Assembly: GCA_025774865.1 (NCBI GenBank)
Contig: JALGZO010000600.1
Coordinates: forward strand, 1 to 21,413
DNA length: 21,413 bases
Source of the DNA: a bacterium
GTDB taxonomy: Bacteria; ARS69
Direction: 5' to 3'
Below are positions 1 to 21,413 of the stretch, one piece after another (positions within the stretch are counted from its first letter, which is position 1; every line of letters starts with the position of its first letter). A model generated the notes under the pieces. That model ran no database searches, was not told where the DNA came from, and saw only the letters and a program-made list of their open reading frames with translations. The position numbers and the translations under genes were made by a program.

Positions 1-890
1 ACGCCGACCGCGTGACCGTGATGAGGCGCGGCCGGAAAGTGAAGACGGTGCGGTCGGCCGACACGGACGAGCGAAAGCTCGCGCAGATGATGGTAGGGCG
101 CGAGCCGGCCGTGCGCGACGCCACGGCGCGTCGGGCCGCCGGGGAGCCGGTGCTCCAGCTGGGTCACGTCGGGGCGATCGGAGAGAAGCGCCGCCGCGCG
201 CGACTCGACGACGTCTCGTTCGACGTGCGCGCCGGCGAGATCGTCGGCGTCGCCGGAGTCGAGGGCAACGGACAGCGTGAGCTCGTGGAGATCATCGCCG
301 GGCTGCGGCCGTTTCGCGGTGAAGTCGAGCTGCGGGGGGCCTCTTTGGCGGGGCTCGGCCCGGCCGGCGTCCGCCGCCTCGGCGTGGCCCACGTTCCCGC
401 GGACCGGACCACGGCGGGGCTCGTCGCCGGGATGACGCTGGAAGAGAATTTCCTCCTCGGTCGAGAGCGCGAGGCCCGCTTCCGACGCGGGCTGGCGTTC
501 GATCGGACCGCGATCCGTCGCCACGCCGAGGGCCGGATCGCGGCCTTCGATGTCAGACCGCCGGACCCGGACGTGACGGCCGAGACCCTGTCCGGCGGGA
601 ACCAGCAGAAGATCGTCATCTCCCGGGAAGTCGAGGGAGCGCCGGCCCTGCTCCTGGCCTCGCACCCGACGCGCGGCGTGGACGTGGGAGCGCAGGAGGC
701 GATCCACGACGCGATTCTCGAGCGGCGAGACGAGGGGGCGGCGGTGCTCCTGGTGTCGTCGGACCTCACCGAAGTGTTGCAGCTGGCGGACCGGATCCTG
801 GTCCTCTACTCCGGGAAGCTGAACGGGGAGTTCGCGCGCGGGGAGGTCGGCGAGGAGGAGATCGGCTTGCGGATGGTGGGCGGGGCGTGA
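1..890 (+). CDS. Nucleoside-type ABC transporter ATP-binding protein, 3' part (5' end outside window)
   Basis: This is the C-terminal part of a double-cassette ABC ATPase of the RbsA/YufO class that energises nucleoside uptake with the two permeases that follow. The reading frame is open from the first bases (first full codon at 3) and begins with ADRVTVMRRG, the typical end of a first ABC cassette, so the true start lies upstream; the GTG at 12 is internal. Numbering from that GTG, the second cassette shows a degenerate Walker A (GVEGNGQREL, about 82-91), the signature LSGGNQQK (193-200) and a degenerate Walker B (ALLLASHPTRGVD) without the usual acidic pair. That degeneration is normal for the second cassette of this family. 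The stop overlaps the next start as GTGA. A BmpA-type binding protein is expected upstream but is not visible. The substrate, nucleoside rather than sugar, is inferred mainly from the permeases. Confidence 0.9.
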   Translation, partial: ADRVTVMRRGRKVKTVRSADTDERKLAQMMVGREPAVRDATARRAAGEPVLQLGHVGAIGEKRRRARLDDVSFDVRAGEIVGVAGVEGNGQRELVEIIAGLRPFRGEVELRGASLAGLGPAGVRRLGVAHVPADRTTAGLVAGMTLEENFLLGREREARFRRGLAFDRTAIRRHAEGRIAAFDVRPPDPDVTAETLSGGNQQKIVISREVEGAPALLLASHPTRGVDVGAQEAIHDAILERRDEGAAVLLVSSDLTEVLQLADRILVLYSGKLNGEFARGEVGEEEIGLRMVGGA

Positions 891-1963
891 GCCCCTCCCG
901 GGCGAAGCTCGTCGGAACGCTGTCGCCCGTCCTCGCCGTGGTCGCCGCCGGTGCACTCGGCTCGTGCCTCGTGCTCGTCATCGGCGAGAGCCCGTGGGAG
1001 GTCGTCCGGGTCATGGTGGGGGGGGTGCTCGGCACCCCGGACGGAATCGGCGCGGTTCTCTTCAGCGCCACCACGCTCAGTCTGACCGGCCTGTCGGTCG
1101 CGTTCGCGTTCCGAGCGGGCCTCTTCAACATCGGAGCGGAGGGGCAGCTTCTCGTCGGAGCGTTTCTCGCCACCCTGACCGCGCTGGCGTTCCCAGGGTG
1201 GCCGGCGCTCGTGCTCGTGCCGGTGTGTGTGCTCGCGGCGGCGGCGGGCGGGGCGGTGTGGGGTGCGATCCCCGGGCTGCTGCGTGCACGACTCGGGGTC
1301 CACGAAGTGATCAACACGATCATGATGAACTTCGTCGCGGCGGGATTGACCAGCTACCTGACGGTGCACGTCTTCAAAGAGCCGGGTCAGGGAATTCCCC
1401 AGACTTCGCAGATCCCCGAGGCCGCGCGTCTGGCCAAGCTCGGTGAGCTCGGTCTTCCCGTTCCGGTCTCGAGTCCGGCGAACGCGACACTGTTCTTGGC
1501 GTTGCTCGTGACCGGGCTCGCGGCCTGGATCCTCTACCGCACCCCGCTCGGCTTCGAGATCCGCGCGCTCGGTCTCGGAGCGCGGGCGGCGCGCACCGCG
1601 GGGCTTCCCACGGCGGCGACGGTCGTCGTCACGATGGCCTTCGCGGGAGCGCTCGCCGGATTGGCGGGCGTGAACGACGTGTTGGGATTCCGGTACCGCT
1701 TCCTCGACGGCTTCTCGGCCGGGATCGGATTTCTCGGGATCGCGGTGGCGTTGCTCGGACGGGCACGCATGAGCGGCGTGATCGCGGCCGCTTTCCTCTT
1801 CGGCGTACTCAACGCCGGAGCCGTCGAAGTGGATCTGTTCACCGACGTGCCGCGCGACCTCGTTCTCGTCGTCCAGGCGGCGGTCCTCCTCTTCGTCGTG
1901 GCCGCGGACGAGCTGTTCCGGCGCGTGTTGTCGGGATGGGGCCGGGCAGGGAGCGTCGCGTGA
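887..1963 (+). CDS. Nucleoside-type ABC transporter permease 1 (YufP/NupP-like, BPD_transp_2)
   Basis: This 358-residue inner-membrane permease forms one half of the translocation channel of a BmpA-type nucleoside importer. It is strongly hydrophobic throughout, with many alanine/valine/leucine-rich segments. It carries the family block FNIGAEGQLLVGAF at about residues 80-93, matching the conserved NIGxEGQ motif of RbsC/YufP-type permeases. A segment around GVHEVINTIMMNF also fits this family. The GTG start at 887 overlaps the ATPase stop (GTGA), so translation is probably coupled. Its own stop overlaps the start of the second permease in the same way. The pairing of two unequal permeases, the first about 360 and the second about 290 residues, is characteristic of the nucleoside branch rather than ribose importers. 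The exact substrate (purine or pyrimidine nucleosides) cannot be read from the sequence. Confidence 0.9.
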   Translation: MSPSRAKLVGTLSPVLAVVAAGALGSCLVLVIGESPWEVVRVMVGGVLGTPDGIGAVLFSATTLSLTGLSVAFAFRAGLFNIGAEGQLLVGAFLATLTALAFPGWPALVLVPVCVLAAAAGGAVWGAIPGLLRARLGVHEVINTIMMNFVAAGLTSYLTVHVFKEPGQGIPQTSQIPEAARLAKLGELGLPVPVSSPANATLFLALLVTGLAAWILYRTPLGFEIRALGLGARAARTAGLPTAATVVVTMAFAGALAGLAGVNDVLGFRYRFLDGFSAGIGFLGIAVALLGRARMSGVIAAAFLFGVLNAGAVEVDLFTDVPRDLVLVVQAAVLLFVVAADELFRRVLSGWGRAGSVA

Positions 1964-2829
1964 TCGATCTCGCGCTCGTGGCCTCCGCGTTCCGACTCGC
2001 AACCCCGCTCCTTTTCGCAGCGCTCGGCGGCGTCGTCTCGGAGCGATCCGGCGTCGTCAACATCGCGCTGGAAGGGAAGCTCCTGGCCGGCGCGTTCGCT
2101 GCCGCGGTGGCGGCCGAGGCGACCGGCAACCCGTGGATGGGCGTAGCCGCGGCCGTCGGAGCCGGGATGCTGATCGGTCTTCTTCACGCCGTGTTCGGCG
2201 TTTGGCTTCGCGGTGATCAGATCGTGGTCGGCGTGGCGCTCAACCTCTTCGTGGCGGGGGTGACCCAGTTCCTCATGGCCTACCTCTACGGGTCGTCGGC
2301 AAACACGCCGCCATTCCCCGGCTTCGGCTCGGCGGGGACGCTGTGGTTCCCGCCACTCGTCTGGTGGGCGTTGCTGCTCGTGCCCCTAGTACATCTGTAC
2401 TTGCGACGGACGCGAGCCGGCCTGCGGCTGGAAGCGGTGGGCGAACACCCGGAGGCGGCGGAGACGCTCGGAGTCAACCCGCTCCGGGTTCGGTTCGCGG
2501 GAGTCGTGTTGGCCGGGGCGCTCGCCGGCCTCGGAGGCGCGTACCTGGCGCTGGAGACGACGCAGTTCGTGAAGAACATGTCGGCCGGCCGCGGCTTCAT
2601 CGCGCTCGCGGCGGTCATCTTCGGCAAGTGGAGGCCGTTCGGCGCGGCGGGAGCGTGTCTCTTCTTCGGGCTGGCGGAGGCGGTGCAGATCCGACTCCAG
2701 GGTTTCGGCATCCCGACCCAGTTCGTGCAGATGATCCCGTACCTTCTCACGATGGTGGCGCTGGCCGGGTTCGTGGGAAGATCGCGGCCGCCGGCGGGGC
2801 TCGGAAAGCCCTTGGCGAGAGAGAAGTGA
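1960..2829 (+). CDS. Nucleoside-type ABC transporter permease 2 (YufQ/NupQ-like)
   Basis: This is the second membrane subunit of the importer, 289 residues from the chosen GTG at 1960. That start creates the same four-base GTGA overlap seen between the two preceding genes, and gives the N-terminus MIDLALVASAFRLATPLLFA usual for the family. An in-frame ATG at 1936 would add eight polar residues inside the upstream gene and is less likely. The diagnostic block SERSGVVNIALEGKLLAGAF lies at about 28-46, corresponding to the conserved VNIGLEGxxL motif. Multiple hydrophobic helices follow, ending near FVQMIPYLLTMVALAGFVG. The family gives the role: lining the channel for nucleoside uptake into the cytoplasm. 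The gene is followed after 61 bases by an exported phosphatase on the same strand, which fits salvage of nucleosides released from nucleotides. Confidence 0.9.
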   Translation: MIDLALVASAFRLATPLLFAALGGVVSERSGVVNIALEGKLLAGAFAAAVAAEATGNPWMGVAAAVGAGMLIGLLHAVFGVWLRGDQIVVGVALNLFVAGVTQFLMAYLYGSSANTPPFPGFGSAGTLWFPPLVWWALLLVPLVHLYLRRTRAGLRLEAVGEHPEAAETLGVNPLRVRFAGVVLAGALAGLGGAYLALETTQFVKNMSAGRGFIALAAVIFGKWRPFGAAGACLFFGLAEAVQIRLQGFGIPTQFVQMIPYLLTMVALAGFVGRSRPPAGLGKPLAREK

Positions 2830-2890
2830 AGCCTTCCGCGGAGAGATCCGACTCCAAGGTGATCTCGACCCGGAGACCGACGGAGCTCGG

Positions 2891-4288
2891 ATGAGAAAAA
2901 TCGCGTTCACCATTCTGGCGCTCGCGGCGCTGGCTGCCTGCGCTCGCGAAACCGTTCGCCCGTCGGCGCCCTCCCCACCGCCCAACGTGGTTCTCCTCAT
3001 CGGTGACGGCTTCGGAGTGGGAGCGTGGGGGCTCGGGCGGGAATGGTCGCGGCATCTCGGACGGGACTTCGTGATGGACCGGCCGGAGGCGGTCGGATTC
3101 CTGGAGACGCACTGCGCCGACGAGCTCGTGACGGACTCGGGCGCGGCCGCTACCGCGTGGGCCACCGGTCAGCTGACGACCCGTCACACGATCGGCGACA
3201 CGCCCGATCGTTTGCCGCTTCTCTTCGAACGGCTGCGCACGGCGGACCGGAGCTTCGGCTTCGTCACGACGAGCCGCGTGACGCACGCCACGCCCGCCGG
3301 CTTCTACGCGCACGCGTCGCACCGGCGCCTCGAAGACTCCGTGGCCGTGTACCTCGCGCCTGCGCGCCCGACCGTCGTGCTGGGCGGGGGCCGGCGTCAC
3401 TTCCTCCCCGAGGCGGAGGACGGCGCACGAACCGACGAGCGAAACCTCCTGCGGGAAGCGGAGGACGCAGGGTTCGTCGTGCTCGACCGGTTCGAAGACC
3501 CGCTCCCGGCGAACCGGCCGGTCCTGGGGCTCTTCTCGTCATCGCACCTTCCCCACGAGCTCGATCGGGAGGACGGGGAGCCGGAGCTCTCGGCGCTGGC
3601 CATCGCGGCGATCCGGCGCCTCCAAGGAGAAGGGAAGCCGTGGTTCCTGTTGATCGAGGAAGGGCGCATCGACTCGGCGTGCCATGACCACGACGGTCCC
3701 GGAGTCGCGTGGAATGCGGTCCGCCTCGATCGCGCCCTGGAGTCCGTGCTCGAGGAAGTCGACCTGTCGCGCACGCTGGTGCTCGTCGGCGCCGACCACG
3801 CGACCACGAGTCCGACGTTTCTGGAAACGGCCCACTCCGAGAGCCTGGATGTCGTGACGGCGTCGGTGGAGGAGATGGAGCGTCGCATCTTCGAAGGTGA
3901 ACCGTGGGCGGGGACCCCTCGCGCCCTCGAGGAGCGGGCGCTGCCGGTCCTCGACGCCGCCGTCCGGCACACGGGGCTCGAGCCCCAGGATCTCGATCGG
4001 ATGCTCGTCGCCAAGAACCAATACGAACGGCGGGCCGCGATCGGGAAGGCGATCTCGCGTCGCTTCGGGATCTCCTTCATCTCCTTCCGGGATCACTTGA
4101 GCTCGAGCCAGGTTCACGGGCATACGCAGGAACCGGTTCCGCTGCGCGCCTGGGGAGTCCGGGCCCAGGAGGCCCAGGGGGTTCGGGACCACGCCCAGCT
4201 CGGACGCTGGATCGCCGACGTGCTCCAGCTGCCAAAAGGCGAGCCGGCCCGGTCCGCGGACACGGCCCACGTCGCCACGCCCGATTGA
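2891..4288 (+). CDS. Lipoprotein alkaline phosphatase (PhoA superfamily)
   Basis: This 465-residue exported phosphomonoesterase begins with a lipoprotein signal ending in the lipobox LAAC (Cys17). It is therefore probably anchored to a membrane, facing the periplasm or surface. The alkaline phosphatase site looks complete: Asp39 in LLIGDG, the nucleophile Ser83 in TDSGAAATA, the THATP block (131-135), Glu256/Asp261/His265 in IEEGRIDSACH, Asp302/His303 in GADHAT, and His411 near HGHTQEP. His132 occupies the place of Asp153 of the E. coli enzyme, as in many bacterial homologues. The length fits the family. The ATG at 2891 follows a GGAG at 2882-2885. The gene sits 61 bases behind nucleoside permeases with no obvious promoter between, suggesting cotranscription. 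Its likely task is to strip phosphate from nucleotides or other monoesters. The true substrate is not known. Confidence 0.9.
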   Translation: MRKIAFTILALAALAACARETVRPSAPSPPPNVVLLIGDGFGVGAWGLGREWSRHLGRDFVMDRPEAVGFLETHCADELVTDSGAAATAWATGQLTTRHTIGDTPDRLPLLFERLRTADRSFGFVTTSRVTHATPAGFYAHASHRRLEDSVAVYLAPARPTVVLGGGRRHFLPEAEDGARTDERNLLREAEDAGFVVLDRFEDPLPANRPVLGLFSSSHLPHELDREDGEPELSALAIAAIRRLQGEGKPWFLLIEEGRIDSACHDHDGPGVAWNAVRLDRALESVLEEVDLSRTLVLVGADHATTSPTFLETAHSESLDVVTASVEEMERRIFEGEPWAGTPRALEERALPVLDAAVRHTGLEPQDLDRMLVAKNQYERRAAIGKAISRRFGISFISFRDHLSSSQVHGHTQEPVPLRAWGVRAQEAQGVRDHAQLGRWIADVLQLPKGEPARSADTAHVATPD

Positions 4289-4313
4289 CACCGGTCGGGC
4301 GCGTCGCTAGGTT
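4285..4313 (+). promoter_or_regulatory. Sigma70-type promoter for the MBL lipoprotein gene
   Basis: A perfect -35 box TTGACA (4285-4290) is followed after exactly 17 bases by TAGGTT (4308-4313), which keeps the first, second and last bases of the -10 consensus. The -35 box overlaps the alkaline phosphatase stop codon. A transcript would start near 4320, about 19 bases before the TTG start, leaving room for the GAGGGAGGG ribosome-binding site at 4326-4334. This implies that the MBL gene can be expressed independently of the transporter genes. Confidence 0.6.
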
Positions 4314-4338
4314 GACCGTTCCGCCGAGGGAGGGCTTC

Positions 4339-5688
4339 TTGTATATCCGCCGACTGGCTCCTGGGTTCTTGCTTCCTTTCGTCCTCGCCGCCTGCGCGGA
4401 AAACGAGCGCTCGGCGTTCGACCCCTCCTCCGACATGAAGCCGCCCGACCTGCTGGGCTTCGCGGTCGTCACGAATGCGGCGGGAACGGAAGCCTGGGTG
4501 GAGTGGGAGGCCGACGAGCCTGCCCGTGCCGTCGTCGAGTACGGCGACGCGATGAACGCACTTCACCGGCACTCCTACGCCGGGGCGCGGGAGTTCGCGA
4601 CGAACGGGCGCACGAGGCTCCTCGCGGCCGAGCCGAGTCGGTCGTACGAATACGCGGTCCGAATGTGGGACCGTGCCGGCAACGAGTCATCCCTCATGCT
4701 CCCGTCCGTGCCCACGCTGGATACGCCGGCGCTCGTCGACGGGGAGCTCATGCTCCTTGCCATGATCGATGTCGGGTGGGGTGACGCGATCTACCTGGAG
4801 ATCCCGCATGCGGGCTCCCCCGGGGGCTTCTCCAACGTGCTGATCGATGCCGGGCACCCGCTCGACGGGATGAAGGTGCTCGATTTCTTCGACCGTCATG
4901 GAGTCACGGACCTGGACTTCGCGTCGCTCAGTCACATTCACGGGGATCACGTCGGCGGTTACTACGGCGACGGCTTCCTGAACGAGGACGGGCTCATCGT
5001 GGACCGAGGCGGCGGCCACCCGGCGGTCCCGATTCCGATCGGGACGTTCATCGACTTCGACGACAAGACCGCCATCAACAGTCCCTATGCGAACCTCATC
5101 TCGGCGCTCGCGGTCCACCCGTCGCTCGGCGAATACGTGGTGGTGGGATGGGGCGAGTCCAGCAACACTCTGGACGCGTTGAAGTGGGGCGACGCCGAGA
5201 TTCACCTCCTGGCGGCGGGACGGAAGCCCTACCTCGACGTCGAGCACACCTATTCCCAGAACGCGGGAAGCGTCGAGAACAACGACTCGATGGTCTGGCG
5301 AGTGCGCTACGGAGACTTCGTGGCCCTTCTGACGGGAGATGCGGAGTTCTCCACGGAGCAGTTCATCCAGAACCACTGGTCCTCGGACTTTCTGCGGGCA
5401 CATTTGCTGAAGCTCGGCCATCACGGATCGAACGACGCGAGCTCGGAGCGCTGGGTGGATTTCGTGACGCCGATGGTCGGATTCATTCCGAACGCCGTGA
5501 GCGAGAACCCCGGCGTGGAGCATCCCTACGTGCTCCAGAGGCTCCGCAATCGCAGCATCGACTACTACGCGTCGGATCGCGTCATCCCGAACCGCGATCG
5601 CTCGCTGCCCGGTGTCCGGGGAGACTTGCTCGTCTACACGGACGGCACCGACTTCACGATCGTCGTGGAGAACGTGCGGTACGAGTGA
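4339..5688 (+). CDS. Secreted lipoprotein with Fn3-like and ComEC-type metallo-beta-lactamase domains
   Basis: This 449-residue protein is probably a membrane-anchored hydrolase. The open frame runs much further upstream, but the TTG at 4339 is preferred. It follows a strong GAGGGAGGG site and yields a lipoprotein signal with lipobox LAAC (Cys19), and upstream codons overlap the phosphatase gene. Residues about 36-125 look like a fibronectin-III-like domain (EAWVEWEADEPARAVVEYG, then SYEYAVRMWDRAGN). The metallo-beta-lactamase domain begins near 138 (MLLAMIDVGWGDAIYLEIP), has the zinc motif HIHGDH (199-204), TGD (332-334) and LGHHGS (359-364), with a further His395. This matches the soluble domain found at the end of ComEC DNA-uptake channels, but no channel helices are present. 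The activity (nuclease, phosphodiesterase or other) is unknown. It ends 19 bases from the convergent EF-G gene with no clear terminator between. Confidence 0.85.
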   Translation: MYIRRLAPGFLLPFVLAACAENERSAFDPSSDMKPPDLLGFAVVTNAAGTEAWVEWEADEPARAVVEYGDAMNALHRHSYAGAREFATNGRTRLLAAEPSRSYEYAVRMWDRAGNESSLMLPSVPTLDTPALVDGELMLLAMIDVGWGDAIYLEIPHAGSPGGFSNVLIDAGHPLDGMKVLDFFDRHGVTDLDFASLSHIHGDHVGGYYGDGFLNEDGLIVDRGGGHPAVPIPIGTFIDFDDKTAINSPYANLISALAVHPSLGEYVVVGWGESSNTLDALKWGDAEIHLLAAGRKPYLDVEHTYSQNAGSVENNDSMVWRVRYGDFVALLTGDAEFSTEQFIQNHWSSDFLRAHLLKLGHHGSNDASSERWVDFVTPMVGFIPNAVSENPGVEHPYVLQRLRNRSIDYYASDRVIPNRDRSLPGVRGDLLVYTDGTDFTIVVENVRYE

Positions 5689-5707
5689 GGCTCGGCGGGC
5701 GCCCCGA

Positions 5708-7774
5708 TCACTCCCCTCGAAACCTCTTCATCGCCTCTTCGGCCGGCTCGAAGTGCGAGATCTCCATCGAGAACGTGCCGCGCCCGCGCGTGAGAGAGCG
5801 AAGGTCGGTGGCGTAGCCGAACGTCCGCGCGAGCGCCACCGTGGCCGACGCCTTTTCGAGCGCGCCGCGACTCTCCATCCCGGTCACCTGCGCGTGACGA
5901 GCGTTGAGATCCCGAAGCACCTCTCCGGCGTACTCCTCCGGCACGAGAACTTCGAGTCGAACGACGGGCTCCAGCATGACGGGGGTCGCGCGCGACGCGG
6001 TATGGCGGAACGCCTCGGCGGTGGCGCCGCGCACCGCGATCTCCGAGGCCGCGTCGCCCGGAAGATCGACTCCGACGAGCCGGACGCGAATGTCGATCAG
6101 CGGATACCCCGCGAACGGACCTGCTCCCATCGAGTCGCGCGCCGACTCCTCGATCCACTCGAGTGACTCGGCGGGGATTCCGTCCCCGGACGCCTCGTTC
6201 GAGAACTCGAATCCCGCGTTGCGGCCGTTCGGTTCGAGGCGTAGCGTCACCGACGCCCGGTGCAGCCGGTCCCCGATCTCCTTGTCGAAGCAACCGGTCT
6301 GGGTCGCCGCGACCCGGATCGTCTCCCGGTAGGCCACCTGCGGATTCCCGATCCTCGCGTCGACCCGAAACTCGCGGGACAGACGCTCGACGAGCACCTG
6401 CAGGTGCAGCTCGCCCATGCCCGAGATGATCTTCTGCCCCGTCTCGAGATCGTCGCGGACCGTGAACGTGGGGTCCTCGACGGCGAGCTCCGCGAGCGAT
6501 TTCTCGAGGTCCGCGAGCTCGGCTTGACTCTTCGGCTCGATGGCGGCCGAGATCACGGGCTCCGGAAATGCGATCTCCTCCAGCAGGATCGGCCGGTCCT
6601 TCGGGGAGAGCGTGTCGCCGGTTCTCGTCCTCTTCGGACCGACGAGAGCGACGATGTCCCCGGCCACGGCCGCGTCCAGCGCCTCCTTCCGATTCGAGTG
6701 CATCCGGTACACGCGGGTGATTCGCTCCTCGATCTCCTGGGTGGCGTTCCAGAGTCGACTCCCCTTGGAGAGCGTTCCCGCGTAGATCCGCGTGTAGTAG
6801 AGGCGGTTACGCGACTCGTCGTTCATCACCTTGTACACGAGCGCCGCGAGCGGAAGGTCGGGGTTGGGGTTGAGCTTCTCGGTCTCGTCGGTGTCGGGAA
6901 CCATCCCTTGGATGGGGGGGACGTCGAGCGGCGACGGGAGGTAGTCCACGGCGGCGTCGACCAGGCGTCGGACTCCCCGGTTCTTGAGCGCGGTTCCGGC
7001 GAGCACCGGGTGCACCGCGCCGGACAGCACGGCCTGGCGCAGCCCCTGTCTGGTCCGCGCGGGATCGAGCGCTCCCCTCTCGAGGAAATCGTCGAGCACG
7101 GTCTCGTCGCCGACGGCCGCCGCCTCGACGAGTCGCTCTCGCAGGCGGTCTCGAAGCTCCGAGTAGGTCGCCGGAACGTCGGTGGCGTCCGGCTCGTCGT
7201 CCTCGCGGGTGGGATCCCACGTCAGGAAGCGGTCCTCGATCAGATCGATCGCCGAGAGGTACCCGGCTTCCGGCTCGACCGGAACGAGCAGTGGCACGAA
7301 CATTCCGTCCAGCTTCCGCTCCATGTCGGCGACGGTTCGATCGAAGTCGGCGCCGGTCCGATCGAGCTTGTTCACGAAGACGATTCGCGGCACGCGGTAG
7401 TCGGAGGCCTGGTGCCACACCTTCTCCGATTGCGGCTCCACACCTTCCACCCCGGACAGGACGACGATCGCACCGTCGAGAACGCGAAGTGACCTCTGCA
7501 CCTCGGCCGTGAAGTCGACGTGGCCGGGTGTGTCGACGATGTTGAGGACGTGATCGCGCCATGGCACGGTCGTGACGGCCGACGTGATCGTGATGCCCCG
7601 CTCCCGCTCCTGCTCCATCCAGTCCATGGTCGCGGTGCCCTCGTCGACCTCGCCGATCTTGTGGGACTCTCCCGAGAAGAAGAGGATGCGCTCGGTGGTC
7701 GTCGTCTTGCCGGCGTCGATGTGCGCGATGATGCCGAGGTTGCGCAGCTTCAGGACGCGTTCTCGAGGGTTCAT
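5708..7774 (-). CDS. fusA: Elongation factor G, probable EF-G2-like paralogue
   Basis: This 688-residue cytoplasmic translation GTPase is full length for EF-G. The G motifs are intact: AHIDAGKT (17-24), DTPGH (81-85) and NKLD (135-138), along with the RGITITSA switch region (59-66) and MGELHLQVLVERL (453-465). The ATG at 7774 gives the usual short EF-G N-terminus (MNPRERVLKLRNLG); an in-frame GTG at 7846 would add 24 unrelated residues and cover the promoter. Domain IV is unusual: where canonical EF-G has a GGRGQYGHV-like loop, this protein has EIGDRLHRASV (499-509), and LPGDAASEIA (571-580) resembles EF-G2-type sequences. It is not next to ribosomal protein or EF-Tu genes, also suggesting a paralogue. 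The ribosomal role is certain at family level; whether it does translocation, recycling or both is not. The symbol denotes family membership. Confidence 0.93.
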   Translation of the reverse strand: MNPRERVLKLRNLGIIAHIDAGKTTTTERILFFSGESHKIGEVDEGTATMDWMEQERERGITITSAVTTVPWRDHVLNIVDTPGHVDFTAEVQRSLRVLDGAIVVLSGVEGVEPQSEKVWHQASDYRVPRIVFVNKLDRTGADFDRTVADMERKLDGMFVPLLVPVEPEAGYLSAIDLIEDRFLTWDPTREDDEPDATDVPATYSELRDRLRERLVEAAAVGDETVLDDFLERGALDPARTRQGLRQAVLSGAVHPVLAGTALKNRGVRRLVDAAVDYLPSPLDVPPIQGMVPDTDETEKLNPNPDLPLAALVYKVMNDESRNRLYYTRIYAGTLSKGSRLWNATQEIEERITRVYRMHSNRKEALDAAVAGDIVALVGPKRTRTGDTLSPKDRPILLEEIAFPEPVISAAIEPKSQAELADLEKSLAELAVEDPTFTVRDDLETGQKIISGMGELHLQVLVERLSREFRVDARIGNPQVAYRETIRVAATQTGCFDKEIGDRLHRASVTLRLEPNGRNAGFEFSNEASGDGIPAESLEWIEESARDSMGAGPFAGYPLIDIRVRLVGVDLPGDAASEIAVRGATAEAFRHTASRATPVMLEPVVRLEVLVPEEYAGEVLRDLNARHAQVTGMESRGALEKASATVALARTFGYATDLRSLTRGRGTFSMEISHFEPAEEAMKRFRGE

Positions 7775-7782
7775 GATGGGCG

Positions 7783-7811
7783 AAGCTAGCACCGCCCCCG
7801 GGGTCCGGCAA
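7783..7811 (-). promoter_or_regulatory. Promoter for the EF-G gene, predicted near-leaderless transcript
   Basis: On the minus strand, TTGCCG (7811 down to 7806) and TAGCTT (7788 down to 7783) are separated by 17 bases. The -10 box is of the same TANNTT type as the one at 4308. Only eight bases lie between the -10 box and the ATG at 7774, so transcription would begin at or one or two bases before the start codon. No Shine-Dalgarno sequence is visible in the bases just upstream of the ATG, consistent with a leaderless message. The -35 match is 4 of 6. Confidence 0.5.
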
Positions 7812-7819
7812 CCGGGGGC
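7794..7819. repeat. Perfect 8-bp inverted repeat with 10-bp spacing in the divergent control region
   Basis: GCCCCCGG at 7794-7801 and its exact reverse complement CCGGGGGC at 7812-7819 are separated by ten bases, giving half-site centres 18 bases apart. The element covers the spacer and -35 box of the EF-G promoter and ends 20 bases before the -35 box of the opposing ABC-transporter promoter. The position fits an operator that could affect both genes. In GC-rich DNA such a repeat can also arise by chance, and it could equally form a hairpin. Confidence 0.4.
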
Positions 7820-7839
7820 ACGCCGTATCTGAGCGGCCG

Positions 7840-7868
7840 TTGACACCCCCGAGTCCCTTTCCTATGCT
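7840..7868 (+). promoter_or_regulatory. Sigma70-type promoter for the ABC sugar-type importer operon
   Basis: A perfect TTGACA (7840-7845) and TATGCT (7863-7868; 4 of 6 to consensus, with the key first, second and last bases) are separated by 17 bases. The predicted start site is near 7875, about 42 bases before the GTG at 7917. The leader carries GGGAG at 7907-7911 as the ribosome-binding site. This is the best promoter match in the window. Confidence 0.7.
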
Positions 7869-7916
7869 GCGCTCCCTCCGACGGCCTCGCGTCCTCTCGT
7901 CGCGCCGGGAGACTCC

Positions 7917-9770: not shown

Positions 9771-9774
9771 CGAC

Positions 9775-15700: not shown

Positions 15701-15985
15701 CGCGTACTCGTGCCGCACCTCGGCGAGACCATCCGCATCACGGCGACGTCGGCCTTCCGCAGCGACATAACCGTCGAGATCTACGACATGGTGGGACGAA
15801 AGGTCACGACGCTGTACGACGGAATCGGCCTGGGTGAGCAGACCTTCGACTGGAACGGGGTCGGGCAGGACGGCTCCGTCGTGGAGCCGGGCGCGTACGT
15901 GTGCCATGTTCGATCAGTGCCGCTCGACGGAGGTCGGGTACGGACCGCGACCGCCCCCATCATCGTCGGTCTGCGGCTCAAATGA
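12719..15985 (+). CDS. Large secreted protein with OB-fold, lamin-tail and FlgD-like domains
   Basis: This 1088-residue exported protein follows the previous gene with an ATGA overlap. A signal peptide ends near 21 (AAA|QD). Residues about 35-145 and 155-250 look like two OB-fold modules (TWFYVSDATGGVAIAH, then AGQRVQVTSTV; second SAFVRLTDGVSEIRMYVDDD). A beta-sandwich follows (270-380). An LTD starts at 386 (GAVLINEVYPVTGS, PEFIELRNKTSTDLDIGGWT). An Ig-like domain lies around 640-730 (IEIRYDEPVLASVATDTSHY). Two further OB-like modules lie around 760-980, with GDTVLVAGFVTVGDIPAV and LAIFIDDGSGSIQIFQNF. A FlgD-like C-terminal domain ends the protein at 988-1088. No nuclease or phosphatase motif was found. 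OB-folds of this kind occur beside the catalytic domains of YhcR-type secreted nucleases, so nucleic-acid or polyanion binding is a reasonable guess, not shown. Domain borders are approximate. Confidence 0.8.
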   Translation: MRSMWLATLAALTATALPAAAQDGPPPRPTEPIAVIRGITAISDVNANDASGFSPLEFMQVTIEGVVQLGTGVLDPFDQVSPSTWFYVSDATGGVAIAHSGQVNTPVTAGQRVQVTSTVSTQGISPIGGTRTLDLLFGGSVQVVGVGTVDAPDSITASDLLTAGATYEGSRVRIADLTVVDPGEWPTGGGSAFVRLTDGVSEIRMYVDDDTDLSGSSPPAAAFDLLGYVAQDDAFPFLDNHYVYPTSLADLVSGDGSGTVTVDPDAVLQNETDITLAFTLTAQEVTLGSFEVELPADWTWSSPGDTATSGPGFVGAQAGYRFEGGVWVLSVTGANVTSANSGTLTVGSLVAPSVLGSSRFTTRTATPGGTLTEVTAPPSVSVVTGPGAVLINEVYPVTGSSGREEPEFIELRNKTSTDLDIGGWTLADIGRTASCTLDSRWAFPSGATIPAAGYVLVCRTALDEQNPGNPNDDRGFRVTFPDFGNPPPFPVPLYEMYDDNFEIPRMDDPETPNLVLVDSTPDDDQIALLGGPVTNGGQCESPNVSGRFLPFAEFVALHDATGQEIDAIAYQEIGPCGRDFCGTGSRAGEAYHVGPPKFEHTLGRDSASTDLAHSWQDLFPSSVPTPGLANVPGDTVAPALIVPPDAGLSSSMIEIRYDEPVLASVATDTSHYTVTAVVPGDTASVDVAVTGVFGDPEEPGRHFYVATASLAAGAVGTLGVMDIPDVQIDSTSAIVRGPNSLTGTATFTVPSEALAICQIQEFDDIGFSPHVGDTVLVAGFVTVGDIPAVEFGERPSRDRVSIWVQEPGGCGVNVFAFLPDAADEYEAGFPDIREFGVQLNDLVQIRGRVTEFVSSSGSGAVTEIEAIADDPGFYKFLLRGLAGPTPVEVTTREGNDERLEGTLVHTIGVAINANALAIFIDDGSGSIQIFQNFSNLDLTRFTVGDNLDVTGIITQFDANPPYFSGYELVPQNQDAIFKVDGEFAQGDPELSVPPRVLVPHLGETIRITATSAFRSDITVEIYDMVGRKVTTLYDGIGLGEQTFDWNGVGQDGSVVEPGAYVCHVRSVPLDGGRVRTATAPIIVGLRLK

Positions 15986-16001
15986 GGAGGCGCCCGGTGA
16001 A
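15986..16001 (+). repeat. First copy of duplicated translation-start element
   Basis: The 16 bases GGAGGCGCCCGGTGAA hold a Shine-Dalgarno sequence, a six-base spacer and a GTG codon at 15997. The same element, with a single C/T change, recurs exactly 47 bases downstream at 16033-16048, where it starts the PorV-like gene. Similarity continues as TCGTTCCGAGAGC versus TCGTTCCGGAGGGC after a small offset. Confidence 0.7.
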
Positions 16002-16047
16002 TTTCGTTCCGAGAGCAATCCATCGAACCCACGGAGGTGCCCGGTGA
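15997..16047 (+). CDS. Possible 16-codon leader peptide coupled to the PorV-like gene
   Basis: From the GTG at 15997, preceded by GGAGG six bases upstream, a small open frame encodes MNFVPRAIHRTHGGAR and stops at TGA 16045-16047. That stop overlaps the GTG start of the PorV-like gene (16044-16046) as GTGA, the coupling arrangement used elsewhere in this window. It may be a translated leader, or simply the remnant of a duplicated gene start. The peptide resembles nothing I recognise. Confidence 0.3.
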   Translation: MNFVPRAIHRTHGGAR

Positions 16048-16048
16048 A
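16033..16048 (+). repeat. Second copy of duplicated translation-start element
   Basis: GGAGGTGCCCGGTGAA, differing by one base from the copy at 15986-16001, forms the ribosome-binding site and GTG start of the PorV-like gene. The Shine-Dalgarno is at 16033-16037 and the GTG at 16044-16046, with identical six-base spacing in both copies. Confidence 0.7.
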
Positions 16049-16931
16049 ATCCGCATCGTTCCGGAGGGCCCTCCTACTGGCCGCGTTCCCGGGGCTGGTT
16101 CTGGCGCCCGCCGCGAGCGCGAAGTTCTTCGACGATCGCGAACTGAGTCCGCGGGCGAGGGGGCTGGGGGGGAGCTACGCGGGGCTCTCGGAGGATGCCA
16201 CGGGCATCTACTACAACCCCGCCGGCCTCGCGAACGTCCCGGGGCTCGATTTCCGAGCGTCCCTCTATCAGCCGTGGAGCGTCTCGTTCGCGCGGGTCAA
16301 TCAGTTCGCCGTCGCGTACCCCACGGAGGGTTGGGGAACGTTCGGATTGGGCTACTCGGACTTCCGCGTCGAGTACCAAGAAACCGTGCTGAGCATCGAG
16401 CGTACACTCACGCTATCGCACGGCTTCACCGCGATGGAAGATCTCTCGTCGAGTCTCGCCCTGGGCTACACGGTCAACCTCTACAACCTGGACTACCCGA
16501 CGCCGTCGGTCTCCGAGCTCGACTTGGGGTCCGAGACGACGCTGGGAATCGATCTCGGGGTCCTCGCGCGGCTGCACGACCGTACGACGGCGGGCGCGTT
16601 CTTCAGGAACGTCAACAACCCGGAGATGGGAGACCCGGTTTCCAGCGACCTCCCTCAGAGTGTCGTGGGCGGTCTCGCTTATCGGCCGTACGACGGCGTG
16701 ATCACTCTCTTCGAAATCGAGAAGCAGCTCGGCGAAGACATCCAGTTCCACGGCGGCGTGGAGTTCAATGTCGCGGAACCGCTGGACATCCGCTTCGGCG
16801 CGCAGTCCAAGCCGAACCTCCTCGACTTCGGCGTGGGGCTCAACTACACGAGCATCCAGGTGGACTTCTCGTACACCCATCACCCCGTCCTCGACCCGAC
16901 GCTGCACTACGGGCTGGGGCTCCAGTTCTAG
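16044..16931 (+). CDS. PorV-like outer-membrane beta-barrel protein
   Basis: This 295-residue protein is predicted to sit in the outer membrane. The frame is open from far upstream, but the GTG at 16044 has GGAGG at 16033-16037 and gives a clean signal peptide (MKSASFRRALLLAAFPG..., cleavage after ASA at 26). The mature N-terminus carries the PorV/FadL-like hallmark: SPRARGLGGSYAGLSEDATG (35-54) followed by IYYNPAGLANV (55-65). The rest alternates hydrophobic and polar residues, as in beta-strands, and ends in an aromatic residue (HYGLGLQF), usual for outer-membrane barrels. PorV-type proteins act in type IX secretion as carriers of cargo with C-terminal sorting domains. The two genes just upstream encode proteins with such C-terminal domains. 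A generic barrel of unknown function remains possible. The HhH-barrel gene begins eight bases after its stop. Confidence 0.8.
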   Translation: MKSASFRRALLLAAFPGLVLAPAASAKFFDDRELSPRARGLGGSYAGLSEDATGIYYNPAGLANVPGLDFRASLYQPWSVSFARVNQFAVAYPTEGWGTFGLGYSDFRVEYQETVLSIERTLTLSHGFTAMEDLSSSLALGYTVNLYNLDYPTPSVSELDLGSETTLGIDLGVLARLHDRTTAGAFFRNVNNPEMGDPVSSDLPQSVVGGLAYRPYDGVITLFEIEKQLGEDIQFHGGVEFNVAEPLDIRFGAQSKPNLLDFGVGLNYTSIQVDFSYTHHPVLDPTLHYGLGLQF

Positions 16932-16939
16932 GGATCGCG

Positions 16940-19468
16940 ATGAGGATCAGTCTCGCCACGAGGTTCCCACGGATCGCGCTCAGGGCGGCGCTCTGGTCCG
17001 CGTGCCTCCTGGGGGGAGCGACGGGCGGGTTCGCCCAAGAAGGCGCGGATCCGCCCGACGCTGCCGCCGTTCGAAGGATCGATCTCAATCGTGCGAGCCT
17101 CCGGGAGATCGAAACCCTGCCCATCCCGAGCGAGGTCGCCCGCGCGATCTGGGAGCAGCGCGAATTCGTGCAGCACTTTCGCGGGGCGGTCGACCTCAAC
17201 GAGATCGACGGCTTGACGCCCGAGATGCTGCAGTCCATCAAGCCGCTGATCGTGATCGAGCCGGTCAAGCGCCATCCCGAGGCGCAGCGCAAGGACGACC
17301 TCTTCTATCGCTTCGAGTGGTGGGAGGGGGCGGAAGGCCGCGACGAGTCGATCGTGGAGCTCTACAAGGTGCTGGCGCTCGAGCCCACCAACATCAACGA
17401 GGCGTCGTACATGGACGTCTACAACCTGCAGAACGCGTCACCGGTCGACGCCGCGGCGATCATCAACTATCGCAAGCAGGTGGGGGAGATCGGCAACCGG
17501 GGTCAGCTTCGGCGCGCGACCGGTCTGACCGGCTGGGGCTATTCGAACATCCGGAACTTCGTCATCTTCGAGCCGCCCGAGGAGGACAACCGGCTCCACG
17601 GCGGGTACTCGCTCCGCGTGGAGTCGACGACGGACTTCCCAGACCTCGTCGATCTGTTTCGGCAGGACCGGGATCCGGGCGAGGGGACGAACGACAACTG
17701 GTGGGATCGCCTGCGGCTCGACAACCCGAATCCGGCCGTCTATCAGAAGCTCCTGCTGCGCTACAAACGGCGGCTCCGCGGGGGGCTCGTGACGGGGCGT
17801 CGCATCGCGGAGGAGGATTTCTTCGACACGAAGAAGGGGTTCGTCAGCTACCAGGACGTCGACCTCGGGCGTCTGAAGGTCGAGAAGATCCTGCTCGGAA
17901 ACTACCAGGTCTCCTGGGGGCAGGGTGTCGTGATGGAGAACACGGACTTCTTCAGCCCGCGGAAGGCCGGCTACAACTTCACGAAGCGCTACGACGGTGT
18001 CATCGGAGACCTGTCCCGGACCCACATGGCGGCGCTGCGGGGCGTCGCGACCGAGGTCACCCTGGGTCCCGTCCGCGCGCTCGGAATTTACTCGGACGAC
18101 GACAAGGACGCGATCCTGAACGCGGACGGTTCCGTGAACATGCTGGTCCGCTTGACTCCGCGCGTCGAAGACGACGAGCTGAAGGCGGCCGGTCTCCGCC
18201 CCATGCGCGACCAGGTGAACGAGAAGCTCTTCGGCGGGAACCTGCGCTACAACTTCCAGCCGGGCAGTTGGCTCGGCTTCGGCGGCTACGAGGCCCGATA
18301 CGATCGCTTCTTCGATCCGAAGTGGGATCCGACGAACCCGTCCGACAAGCACCCGCTGATCGCCGACGACGACGAGGACAACATCGTCGCGCAGGACGCC
18401 GAGATGTTTTCCTCCCTCAAGAGCGACGGCAAGTTCCGACGCGTCTACGGCGCGGATTTTCAATGGGTCTATCGGAACATGGTGGTGCAGGGCGAGTACG
18501 CGGAGCTCGACAAGGGCGGGAAATTCTACAAGATCGGCGACGATCCCAGGGCGATGGTGTTCAACGCCTACGTGCAGGAAGAGAACCTCAACGTCCTCTT
18601 GGTCTACCGCGACTACGACGTCGCGTTCGACAATCCGTACCAGCGTTCCTTCTCGAATTACAAGCGGTTCAAGGGCACCGTTCTGGAAGACGAGTTTCGG
18701 CTCCAGGACCCGATTTACGGTCTGGTCTACGACAACGCGGCCCAGCCGCAGGCCGAGCGCGGCTTCTACATCAACACGCGCTACCGCTTCGCGGACCCGT
18801 TCATCGCCACGGTCGAGTGGGATACCTGGCGGCGGCAGGCGGACAAGAGCAAGTACTCGCGGTTCGTCGGCCGTCTCGAGTACCGTGTCCTGTTCCCGCT
18901 GCGATTCAAGCTCCGTCAGAAGTGGCAGAACCGCGAGCACGAGAATCTGGAAGATCCCACGATCTTCCACCAGTCCGAGACCATCTGGGCAATGGAGTAC
19001 CGGCTATCCCGCTTCGACGAGCTGGAGTTCCGCTACGGCTCCGCGTACATCAAGTGGCCTCCGCGGGGTCGCCTCCAAGGTGAGCCGGAGCCGAACGGCC
19101 GGAACCCGATCTCGGGGAACAACTCCCAGGACGGCAGGTGGTGGAGTGCCAAGCTCACCCACCACATGAAGAACCGCCGGGTCAAGATCGACGGCGAGGT
19201 GATCCTGTACGAAGGATTCTGGTGGTTCTTCGAGAAGAACACGTTCCGAGTCATCGACGGGAACAACGGCTTCCGGACCTGGGTGGAGGTGACGGACCGC
19301 GTGTCGGACGGCCTGACCGCCCGCCTGCGCTACGTGCGCGACAATCAGCAGCGGCTGACGAACGTGGATATCCGGGAGTTCAACGAGGAAGTCGGGGACC
19401 CGATCGACGCCGACGACGTCCGAAACATCATCCACTACTTCCGCGTTCAATTGGACTATACCTTTTGA
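16940..19468 (+). CDS. Outer-membrane barrel protein with two N-terminal ComEA-like helix-hairpin-helix domains
   Basis: This 842-residue exported protein starts at the ATG at 16940, with AGGG at 16930-16933; the open frame upstream overlaps the PorV-like gene and is a shadow. A signal peptide ends near 32 (GGFA). Residues 46-106 form a ComEA-like HhH pair: IDLNRASLREIETLPIPSEV, then FRGAVDLNEIDGLTPEMLQS. A second copy lies at about 150-208: NINEASYMDVYNLQNASPVD, then IGNRGQLRRATGLTG. From about 217 to the end the chain looks like a large beta-barrel, with a conserved-looking block YQVSWGQGVVMENTDFFSP (322-340) and a terminal aromatic residue (VQLDYTF). The architecture matches HhH/barrel proteins known from Bacteroidota, whose function is not established. 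The hairpins lack the GxG of DNA-binding HhH motifs. A surface receptor or DNA-related porin is possible; neither is proven. Confidence 0.8.
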   Translation: MRISLATRFPRIALRAALWSACLLGGATGGFAQEGADPPDAAAVRRIDLNRASLREIETLPIPSEVARAIWEQREFVQHFRGAVDLNEIDGLTPEMLQSIKPLIVIEPVKRHPEAQRKDDLFYRFEWWEGAEGRDESIVELYKVLALEPTNINEASYMDVYNLQNASPVDAAAIINYRKQVGEIGNRGQLRRATGLTGWGYSNIRNFVIFEPPEEDNRLHGGYSLRVESTTDFPDLVDLFRQDRDPGEGTNDNWWDRLRLDNPNPAVYQKLLLRYKRRLRGGLVTGRRIAEEDFFDTKKGFVSYQDVDLGRLKVEKILLGNYQVSWGQGVVMENTDFFSPRKAGYNFTKRYDGVIGDLSRTHMAALRGVATEVTLGPVRALGIYSDDDKDAILNADGSVNMLVRLTPRVEDDELKAAGLRPMRDQVNEKLFGGNLRYNFQPGSWLGFGGYEARYDRFFDPKWDPTNPSDKHPLIADDDEDNIVAQDAEMFSSLKSDGKFRRVYGADFQWVYRNMVVQGEYAELDKGGKFYKIGDDPRAMVFNAYVQEENLNVLLVYRDYDVAFDNPYQRSFSNYKRFKGTVLEDEFRLQDPIYGLVYDNAAQPQAERGFYINTRYRFADPFIATVEWDTWRRQADKSKYSRFVGRLEYRVLFPLRFKLRQKWQNREHENLEDPTIFHQSETIWAMEYRLSRFDELEFRYGSAYIKWPPRGRLQGEPEPNGRNPISGNNSQDGRWWSAKLTHHMKNRRVKIDGEVILYEGFWWFFEKNTFRVIDGNNGFRTWVEVTDRVSDGLTARLRYVRDNQQRLTNVDIREFNEEVGDPIDADDVRNIIHYFRVQLDYTF

Positions 19469-19493
19469 TGACCTGGGGAGGAGAAGGTTGCCC

Positions 19494-20816
19494 ATGAAGC
19501 GAATGTCGCTCCTCACGATCGTGATCCTCGCGGCGGGCGCCCCCCGGGATGCGGCGGGATTGACGTTTCTCGATCTCTTACCCGGGGACGAGGCCTTGTT
19601 GAGCGACGCCCGCGCGGCGGCGCTCGGTCGCACCCGGACGGCCGGTCATACGGGCGCGTTCACGGCCGCCTCGAATCCGGCGCAGTTGTCTAGAAGCGAC
19701 GAGATGCTCGTGATGCTCGGAGGGGGCTTTCAGAAGATGAAGGAAGTTCGCTCGACTCCGGCCTACGACAGCTTCGACGCGTTTCTCGTGAACTCCAGCT
19801 ACGCCCTCAATGACAAGTACCAGTATGAAGGTGGCATCGGGATCTCCGGTCCACTCGGCTCGGGCGGAGTCCTCGGCATGTTCGGCGCCGGCTTGTCGTA
19901 CGCTCCCGTGTGGGACTTCAACTATGACTACCTGGAGGAAGTGCGCGACAACAATCCGTTCACGCAGCCTCGTGACAAGCTCATCGCGTTGAACGAGGTC
20001 CGGTCCGACGGCGCGATCGAAGCCGTCACGGGCGGGGTCGGGGTCGCCCCGCTGGAGTGGCTCGCGGCCGGCGTGTCCGTCCAGTACCTCTGGGGCGATA
20101 GCCATCTCTTCGTTCAGACCCGTCTCGTTCAGGAAGACCTCCGGGGTTTCCTGGACCTGGAGACATCTTCGATGTCCGGCGTCCGCGGTGTGGTCGGGCT
20201 CAGCGTCCGTCCGAATCACCGCTTCGACTTCGCTGCCACCTGGAAGACGGAAACCACGCTGGAAGGGAAGTTCCGCGCCGGTGATGCGGAGGACCCGAAC
20301 GTGTTCAACGGCTCGTTCGACGTGAAGTACCCGAACGAGCTGGGGTTCGGCGTCGTGTTTCGACCGCGGGCGAGGGTCCGCACGACGATCCGGGCCGAGG
20401 CCAACTGGGGTGAATGGTCGAAGTACGAGAACGACCTGGCCAACGACCCGAGGCTTGCCGCCATGTGGGATTTCCTCGTCCTCGACGGGGATCTCGAGGA
20501 CGTGTGGGACTTCCGGGCAGGGATCGAGCACGTGTTCTACAACGATTTTCCGGTCCGCTTCGGGTTCGCTCACAAGTCGTCACCGCAGGACAAGCAGGTC
20601 GTGACCACGTCGTTCACGTTCGGCGGCGGGCTCCTCTTCGGGCCGCTGAGGGCGGATGCCGGCGTGGAAGTGGCGAATCGCAAGTACCGCCACGACGATC
20701 TGTTCGATGATGCGTTCTTCGGAGGCACTTCGCGGGTGACCCAGGATCTCGTGGAAGAGAACGCCACGTTCGGCTACGTCACCCTCAGCACCACGTTCGA
20801 TCCCTGGGGAGGGTAG
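19494..20816 (+). CDS. PorV/FadL-like outer-membrane barrel protein
   Basis: This is a 440-residue predicted outer-membrane barrel. The ATG at 19494 lies six bases after GGAGGAGAAGG (about 19477-19487); an in-frame TTG at 19488 would add two residues and cannot be excluded. A short signal peptide ends near 22 (RDAAG). The N-terminal block DARAAALGRTRTAGHTGAFT (38-57) followed by AASNPAQLSRSDE (58-70) is a variant of the PorV/FadL pattern with its conserved NPA. The remainder has amphipathic strands, such as RFGFAHKSSP and VVTTSFTFGGGLLFGPL, and the end YVTLSTTFDPWGG lacks a terminal aromatic residue. It is 25 bases downstream of the HhH barrel gene and four bases upstream of the 5'-nucleotidase start, so it belongs to the same operon. 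Its partner or substrate is unknown. It may be a transporter for hydrophobic or small solutes, or a secretion accessory. Confidence 0.75.
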   Translation: MKRMSLLTIVILAAGAPRDAAGLTFLDLLPGDEALLSDARAAALGRTRTAGHTGAFTAASNPAQLSRSDEMLVMLGGGFQKMKEVRSTPAYDSFDAFLVNSSYALNDKYQYEGGIGISGPLGSGGVLGMFGAGLSYAPVWDFNYDYLEEVRDNNPFTQPRDKLIALNEVRSDGAIEAVTGGVGVAPLEWLAAGVSVQYLWGDSHLFVQTRLVQEDLRGFLDLETSSMSGVRGVVGLSVRPNHRFDFAATWKTETTLEGKFRAGDAEDPNVFNGSFDVKYPNELGFGVVFRPRARVRTTIRAEANWGEWSKYENDLANDPRLAAMWDFLVLDGDLEDVWDFRAGIEHVFYNDFPVRFGFAHKSSPQDKQVVTTSFTFGGGLLFGPLRADAGVEVANRKYRHDDLFDDAFFGGTSRVTQDLVEENATFGYVTLSTTFDPWGG

Positions 20817-20820
20817 GCCC

Positions 20821-21413
20821 TTGTCGCGCCGGATCTTTGCCGCGTTCCTCTCGCTCGTCGTTCTCGGGGCGGCGGCTCCCGCCGAGGCCGAGATCGTCAA
20901 GCTGACGGTCGTCCATACGAACGACATCCATGGCGGGATCAACCCGTCGGACGCCACGTTCATGAACCGCGACTTCCCGCCGCGGCTCGGGGGCGCCGCC
21001 TCCATGGTGACGCTGCTGCGGCGGCTGCGGGCCGAGATCGAAGCGAGCGGTGGCCACTTCCTCATGATGGACGCCGGCGACACGTTCCAGGGGACGCCCG
21101 TCGGGACGCTCACGAAGGGCCGCGCCGTGCTCGACTTCATGAACTCGGCCGGCTACGACGCGCTCTCGCTCGGAAACCACGACTTCGACGAAGGCAAGGA
21201 GAACTGCCAGGAGCTGGTGGCGCGCGCCAACTTCCCGGTCCTCGCGGCGAACCTGATCGACGAGACGACGGGGACGACGGCCGAATGGGTCGAACCCTGG
21301 ATCATCAAGGACTACGGGAATCTCCGGGTGGGCATCATCGGCCTGATTACCCCGGAGACGGAGAACATGAGCTTTCCGGCGAACGTGGCCGGGCTCGACT
21401 TCGCCCCGATGGC
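20821..21413 (+). CDS. 5'-nucleotidase/UshA-type metallophosphoesterase, N-terminal part (runs off window)
   Basis: The frame stays open from the TTG at 20821 to the end of the window, giving 197 residues. GGGGAGGG at 20806-20813 lies seven bases upstream. A signal peptide ends near 23 (AEA|EI). The calcineurin-like metallophosphoesterase motifs of 5'-nucleotidases are present: HTNDIHGG (32-39) with Asp35 and His37, DAGDTFQGT (84-92) with Asp87, and GNHDFD (118-123). Asn119 is a metal ligand, and His120 and Asp123 match the catalytic dyad of UshA. The remaining metal histidines and the substrate-binding domain lie beyond the window. The family removes phosphate from nucleotides (UshA also splits UDP-sugars) in the periplasm or at the surface. 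It is the last visible gene of the exported-protein operon and complements the nucleoside importer at the window start. Confidence 0.9.
   Translation, partial: MSRRIFAAFLSLVVLGAAAPAEAEIVKLTVVHTNDIHGGINPSDATFMNRDFPPRLGGAASMVTLLRRLRAEIEASGGHFLMMDAGDTFQGTPVGTLTKGRAVLDFMNSAGYDALSLGNHDFDEGKENCQELVARANFPVLAANLIDETTGTTAEWVEPWIIKDYGNLRVGIIGLITPETENMSFPANVAGLDFAPM

Follow-up and report, generated by a model that had tools for sequence, protein, structure and literature searches.

A conserved, type IX-associated operon with a helix-hairpin-helix barrel and a possible role in scavenging extracellular nucleic acids

How fragments of DNA or RNA cross the outer membrane of diderm bacteria as nutrients is poorly known. 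Here we describe a cluster of ten genes on a 21,413-nucleotide stretch of bacterial DNA (contig JALGZO010000600.1 of assembly GCA_025774865.1; the whole stretch is called the window below), in which an ATP-binding cassette (ABC) importer, surface proteins and secreted hydrolases are encoded beside a predicted outer-membrane barrel with helix-hairpin-helix (HhH) motifs. The question becomes testable with this locus, as the operon is conserved, holds one candidate for each step and includes a barrel family outside Pfam.

Candidatus Izemoplasmatales, which lack an outer membrane, offer one of the closest parallels. Their "DNA-degradation loci" bring together a lamin-tail domain (LTD) protein, nucleotidases and ABC transporters with nucleosides or nucleobases as predicted substrates (PMC8289736). 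The window has the same co-located LTD protein, nucleotidase and ABC transporter genes, whereas in the available part of that account the LTD protein bears a nuclease domain and no MalFG/UgpB-type importer, PorV-like gene or HhH-barrel gene is reported (PMC8289736). A second parallel is natural transformation in Riemerella, where a DUF5689 surface protein, an outer-membrane barrel and an HhH protein (RS04920, RS04915 and RS02645) are jointly required (PMC8459023). In the locus described here, by contrast, the HhH region is fused to the barrel, its hairpins are degenerate, no carboxypeptidase-regulatory barrel was found, and a nucleotidase and an importer are added.

Individual parts also have described relatives. 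The locus shares with the SprA-PorV translocon of the type IX secretion system (T9SS) a PorV-like partner, candidate cargo with T9SS-like C-terminal domains and an sprA gene in every host genome, but the HhH barrel has 840 residues, unlike SprA (~2000), and a separate sprA is present in the same genomes. The metallo-β-lactamase-fold (MBL) lipoprotein is homologous in fold to the C-terminal nuclease domain of ComEC (9ic4) and has like metal ligands; it differs in being a free-standing secreted lipoprotein without a membrane channel. The substrate-binding protein (SBP) belongs with UgpB and the UgpB-related Thermus U3G-binding protein, the latter cited as a "dinucleotide-binding protein" (PMC12718374), and has the phosphate-site residues of that group; it departs from them at the second glycerol-site Trp of UgpB and at the sites that vary among the 7c0x/7c14 chains. 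In concept, with surface capture, outer-membrane transport, periplasmic processing and import, the arrangement resembles the SusCD polysaccharide-utilization loci, and no SusC, SusD or TonB-dependent receptor was among the Pfam matches of the window.

Conservation of the operon and its link to type IX secretion

The cluster has the core order MBL lipoprotein, MalF, MalG, SBP, LTD/OB-fold proteins, PorV1, HhH barrel, PorV2 and 5'-nucleotidase, and was found again in unrelated bacteria. Of the 290 genomes sampled, 34, spread over 22 families, had a full-length HhH barrel by profile search. Neighborhoods were scored for the 33 full-length loci other than the window's own, counting only loci with enough flanking sequence. 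A PorV1-like gene lay directly upstream of the barrel in 28/32 loci, cargo with a T9SS-type C-terminal domain was encoded upstream in 25/29, PorV2 was present in 26/30, and a nucleotidase accompanied 16 of 28 barrels, two of these nucleotidases being short versions. Identity of the barrel to the window copy fell as low as 25% in the family alignment, which indicates long-standing conservation of the gene order. A preliminary description of the window, made from its sequence alone, had proposed a locus for scavenging extracellular nucleotides or nucleic acids and held that a lack of conserved co-occurrence in relatives would speak against it; the cluster is conserved over 22 families, and the proposal therefore does not fail on that ground.

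The importer is part of this conservation. Genes for MalF, MalG and SBP stand upstream of the LTD genes in six families (f1, the window's own, and f69, f135, f137, f102 and f130), and f103 has SBP alone, without MalFG, upstream of its LTD genes, such that some part of the importer is found in seven families. Moreover, the MBL gene is immediately upstream of malF in three loci (L068, L071 and L134) from f69 (two genera) and f135. The sugar-type ABC genes had been regarded as an intervening weak point, but their recurrence within this operon across unrelated families makes them core instead. When families were grouped by hand, seven had both MalFG-SBP and the nucleotidase, three had the nucleotidase only, none had the importer only and nine had neither (p=0.002).

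Two genome-wide associations were found. Every barrel genome carried sprA (34/34 at E<=1e-10, versus 99/290 overall; p=1.6e-18), an association part of which may come from shared ancestry. Within sprA-positive genomes, the SBP subfamily, counted at E<=1e-60, was present in 23 of 34 that bear the barrel versus 2 of 65 others (p=3e-12), and by family in 13/22 versus 2/52 (p=4e-7). In several genomes the SBP gene was unlinked to the barrel, with no recognizable MalFG alongside, and the link between SBP and barrel is therefore not merely physical. We conclude that this is almost certainly a real, conserved operon associated with type IX secretion.

The window is an entire contig (C604) of a fragmented 4.7-Mb genome in 785 contigs and holds the following genes, with the best supporting matches in parentheses.

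3 to 890, plus strand: ABC ATPase of a Bmp/CUT2-type importer, C-terminal part (Pfam ABC_tran); N-terminus on contig C528; accessory module
887 to 1963, plus strand: Bmp-type importer permease 1 (BPD_transp_2, 6e-45); accessory module
1936 to 2829, plus strand: Bmp-type importer permease 2 (BPD_transp_2, 2.3e-40); accessory module
2891 to 4288, plus strand: alkaline phosphatase lipoprotein of the PhoA family (PF00245, Alk_phosphatase, 3.6e-53); lipobox LAAC
4306 to 5688 (exact start approximate), plus strand: secreted MBL lipoprotein, homologue of the ComEC nuclease domain (ComEC_Rec2, 2.9e-18); core
5708 to 7846, minus strand: elongation factor G (EF-G), fusA-like (GTP_EFTU/EFG domains); not part of the system
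7917 to 8897, plus strand: CUT1 permease of the MalF/UgpA type (BPD_transp_1; best match UgpA); core
8919 to 9770, plus strand: CUT1 permease of the MalG/UgpE type (BPD_transp_1); core
9775 to 11079, plus strand: CUT1 substrate-binding lipoprotein (SBP) of the UgpB/dinucleotide-binding-protein group (SBP_bac_1); core
11181 to 12722, plus strand: LTD1, lamin-tail surface protein with a FlgD/T9SS-like C-terminal domain (LTD, 2.9e-9; FlgD_ig, 3.2e-4)
12719 to 15985, plus strand: LTD2, lamin-tail and OB-fold surface protein with a FlgD/T9SS-like C-terminal domain (LTD, 2.5e-13; OB, 4e-4; FlgD_ig, 1.2e-4); core
16044 to 16931, plus strand: PorV1, PorV-like outer-membrane barrel (PDB 6h3i PorV, 2.3e-6); core
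16940 to 19468, plus strand: HhH barrel, predicted outer-membrane protein with two N-terminal (HhH)2 units (HHH_3, 2.3e-15); core
19494 to 20816, plus strand: PorV2, second PorV/BamG-like barrel (BamG, 3e-12; PorV_fam, 1.1e-7); core
20821 to 21413, plus strand: UshA-type 5'-nucleotidase, truncated at the contig end (Metallophos, 2.6e-6); core in importer-bearing loci

All parts named in the preliminary description were present, namely, the C-terminal half of the ATPase with two BPD_transp_2 permeases, PhoA, the MBL protein, the LTD/OB proteins, the HhH protein and the UshA-type nucleotidase. Beyond them, a PorV-like barrel stands on either side of the HhH barrel, each LTD protein has a T9SS-like domain at its C-terminus, and the locus is tied to type IX secretion. 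Lipoboxes were found on PhoA, MBL and SBP, and the remainder of the 5'-nucleotidase was not found on any other contig of the genome.

Clues to the substrate

The MBL lipoprotein matched the ComEC nuclease domain in PDB 9ic4 (2.4e-28), and the metal ligands were present as HxHxDH from position 4933, TGDAE from 5332 and GHHGS from 5416. The MBL protein is the candidate nuclease of the window.

The closest solved structures to the SBP were those of the 7c14/7c0x "sugar-binding" series (1.3e-60 for 7c14) and UgpB (4aq4; 5.4e-60). We take the 7c0x series to be the Thermus U3G/dinucleotide-binding protein. Residues of UgpB were mapped onto eight SBP homologues through the printed alignment. The SBP keeps the phosphate-site residues Y/E/S/S/Y/R of UgpB, with Y69, S148, S273 and Y348 present in 7 to 8 of the 8 homologues, all of which have Ala in place of the second glycerol-site Trp. 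Because the phosphate site is kept and the second Trp is lost, the alignment favors a ligand that carries phosphate but differs from glycerol-3-phosphate. Six genomes (loci L129, L130, L131, L132, L133 and L138) encode a UgpB-like SBP without recognizable adjacent MalFG, and in L131 it adjoins a PorV-like gene; an SBP lipoprotein that lacks a dedicated permease might act in some other capacity.

The nucleotidase fragment in the window is 82% identical to the full copy in a relative, G002, which includes the 5_nucleotid_C domain. Full-length homologues combine Metallophos and 5_nucleotid_C, match structures of the CD73/UshA family and have intact metal-binding motifs. At the first of two presumed base-stacking sites, assigned by reference to CD73, an aromatic residue (Phe in PFGN) was nearly invariant among 15 homologues.

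At their C-termini, LTD1 and LTD2 have FlgD_ig/T9SS-like domains, a type that serves for sorting in type IX secretion; the matches are below the Pfam cut-offs in the window and clear in several homologues. Among 34 cargo homologues, OB-fold domains occurred in 26, FlgD_ig in 22, LTD in 16, DUF5689 in 10 and Por_Secre_tail in 5, and the genomes are rich in TIGR04183. Endonuclease I was seen in genome G136 only, where a gene placed directly after PorV1, barrel, PorV2 and nucleotidase encodes 1832 or more residues with this domain (2.4e-56) and an OB-fold (L089:11505-17003; the frame leaves the fetched stretch). A PHP-type phosphoesterase assignment for an extra cargo in L083/L084 was dropped, as it was without Pfam support.

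Proposed function and alternatives

The HhH protein is a putative membrane barrel by its composition, its strand-rich sequence and its PorV-like partners. The family profile of PorV1 matched PorV as solved in complex with SprA (6h3i; E=2.3e-6), and the G002 copy matched PorV_fam at 4.6e-11. The HhH region has the (HhH)2 fold (HHH_3, 2.3e-15) and matched ComEA (PDB 8dss, 1.6e-7). No solved structural relative of the barrel was found, the barrel family matches no Pfam model, and no description of an HhH barrel-PorV system was found in the open-licence literature searched. There is also a shorter class of HhH barrels of ~580 to 680 residues (L090-L100; e.g., L093:9239-11245, L095:9052-11073 and L098:8555-10525), which stands beside a PorV1-like gene in 5 of 11 cases, sometimes shares a genome with the long class and may be its Bacteroidota-type member. 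One genome encodes a second HhH protein, of 600 residues, beside an MBL gene and downstream of the main barrel operon (L074:2974-5876).

Independent pointers to the use of nucleic acids or nucleotides come from the MBL protein, the SBP, the nucleotidase, the OB-fold/LTD proteins, the Endonuclease I cargo and the purine/Bmp module described below. We give about even credence to the reading that the conserved operon scavenges extracellular nucleic acids, most likely as oligonucleotides. Conservation of the operon, its gene families, its co-occurrence with the T9SS and the SBP residues are observed; the substrate, the direction of transport, the sequence of steps and all contacts between proteins in the following scheme are what we infer. 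LTD/OB-fold proteins exported by the T9SS would catch DNA or RNA on the cell surface. Nucleases would cleave the captured nucleic acid, with the ComEC-type MBL lipoprotein as the candidate here and a secreted Endonuclease I as another in one relative. The HhH barrel, in complex with its PorV-like partners, would pass fragments across the outer membrane, and the UshA-type enzyme would strip phosphates in the periplasm. The UgpB-like SBP and MalFG-type permeases would then import small phosphate-containing fragments, such as dinucleotides. Finally, in the window's lineage, the neighboring Bmp-type nucleoside importer, alkaline phosphatase and purine-catabolism genes might handle the end products.

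A more specific version, which we put forward tentatively and hold to be doubtful, is that the HhH barrel and its PorV-like partners form an outer-membrane translocation complex of a kind not described before. Coupled to OB-fold receptors exported by the T9SS, it would bring fragments of nucleic acid into the periplasm in many distant lineages with neither SusCD nor type IV pili. If the operon does scavenge nucleic acids, the reach of the T9SS would extend from enzyme secretion to a dedicated nutrient-capture machine, and the operon would be a marker for consumers of extracellular DNA among uncultured lineages.

Several observations weigh against nucleic-acid scavenging. Apart from MBL, no dedicated nuclease family was among the Pfam and family assignments of the window. 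The SBP sites at which the solved 7c0x/7c14 chains differ from one another, presumably ligand contacts, are unconserved, with the Q equivalent being A, T, S or Y and the N equivalent being W in the window SBP. The second base-stacking position of the nucleotidase is Leu or Ile in 10 of 15 homologues and Tyr in 5. The Bmp family showed no genome-wide association with the HhH barrel (8/34 versus 75/256; p=0.55), and some loci have barrel and PorV1 but neither nucleotidase nor importer. Structure predictions for the HhH barrel were unusable (pLDDT of 30.5 from the single sequence and 31.6 from a 3-row alignment). Lastly, the GxG motif for DNA contact is missing from 135 of 136 HhH hairpins in the 34 family members, the sole exception being hairpin 2 of L086 (GFG), and small HhH proteins of other sampled genomes carry GIG. 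ComEA-like DNA binding by the barrel was therefore rejected; the name "ComEA-like HhH barrel" given to it earlier is apt for the fold and not for DNA contact, and the HhH domain may have a structural role.

The most probable alternative, which we nevertheless consider unlikely, is that the barrel-PorV pair acts as an accessory complex of type IX secretion, docking, releasing or anchoring the OB/LTD proteins of the adjacent genes on the cell surface, much as PorV acts with SprA, and that the importer and nucleotidase are of use to some lineages only. Consistent with such a role, PorV1 resembles the PorV of the T9SS, all 34 full-length barrels are in sprA-positive genomes, cargo with a C-terminal domain is encoded upstream in the great majority of loci (25/29), and several loci consist only of cargo, PorV1 and barrel, with or without PorV2 (e.g., L040, L041, L070 and L072). 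An accessory role, however, leaves unexplained why SBP, MalFG, MBL and the nucleotidase are in the operon and why SBP tracks the barrel. Moreover, 65 sprA-positive genomes lack the barrel, which is thus not a general part of the T9SS.

Next, and also improbable, is that the operon scavenges some other phosphorylated compound, such as glycerophosphodiesters, nucleotide sugars or phosphorylated glycans. UgpB matches the SBP equally well (5.4e-60) and has its phosphate-site residues conserved there, the 5'-nucleotidase family includes UDP-sugar hydrolases, and PhoA is adjacent in the window's lineage. Against this, the second glycerol-site Trp of UgpB is replaced by Ala in 8/8 homologues, and the ComEC-type MBL, OB-folds, Endonuclease I cargo and purine module favor nucleic acids. 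Least probable of all, and in our view very unlikely, is outer-membrane DNA uptake for natural transformation, by a surface OB/DUF5689 protein, a barrel channel with periplasmic HhH domains and then ComEC: DUF5689 in 10/34 cargos recalls the surface protein, barrel and HhH protein that Riemerella needs (PMC8459023), but the hairpins here lack GxG, a nucleotidase and ABC importer suit feeding instead, Pfam reports for the window barrel none of the carboxypeptidase-regulatory domain of the Riemerella barrel, and the Riemerella HhH protein is separate.

Neighboring genes

The preliminary description had suggested that extension of the contig might reveal a BmpA-type protein and nucleoside catabolism, and both were found. 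The first 94 bases of the window recur at the end of contig C528 with 2 mismatches, a pattern suggestive of strain variation at which the assembly broke. C528 carries the N-terminus of the ATPase, a Bmp-type binding lipoprotein, carbamate kinase, YqeC, an aminotransferase and a deaminase of the 5'-deoxyadenosine/guanine deaminase group (513.8 bits, slightly below the cut-off of 522). The order was confirmed in G002, where a single unbroken contig runs from aminotransferase, YqeC, carbamate kinase, deaminase, Bmp, ATPase, two permeases and PhoA to MBL and EF-G, followed by malF through LTD3. In G138 (f135), a Bmp importer is encoded with adenine deaminase and carbamate kinase, both above their cut-offs, ~5 kb upstream of the operon. 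Thus, a module for purine catabolism and Bmp-type import is near the cluster in two families, adjacent in f1 and ~5 kb upstream in f135. The Bmp importer was nevertheless rejected as a core part, given its lack of genome-wide association, and is an accessory, occasional neighbor. PhoA adjoins MBL in G001 and G002; it was absent beside the cluster in the distant loci examined and was seen there only in the window's own family. The idea of a nucleic-acid-scavenging locus thus holds up in that the locus is conserved and several parts fit it, with substrate and direction still inferred, and gives way in that the Bmp importer and PhoA are only occasional neighbors.

In f1, to which the window belongs, EF-G stands on the opposite strand with MBL on one side and malF on the other, and no EF-G was found between these genes in the f69 and f135 loci. 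The opposite-strand gene upstream of malF was seen in the window (5708-7846), L034, L036 and L101, where it splits an otherwise conserved operon. EF-G, earlier named as a weak point of the proposal, was rejected as a part of the system; it is a lineage-specific insertion. YqeC, a selenium-cofactor biosynthesis protein, is encoded inside the purine module (L003:4105-4962, on C528), suggesting a selenium-dependent molybdenum hydroxylase in the window's organism.

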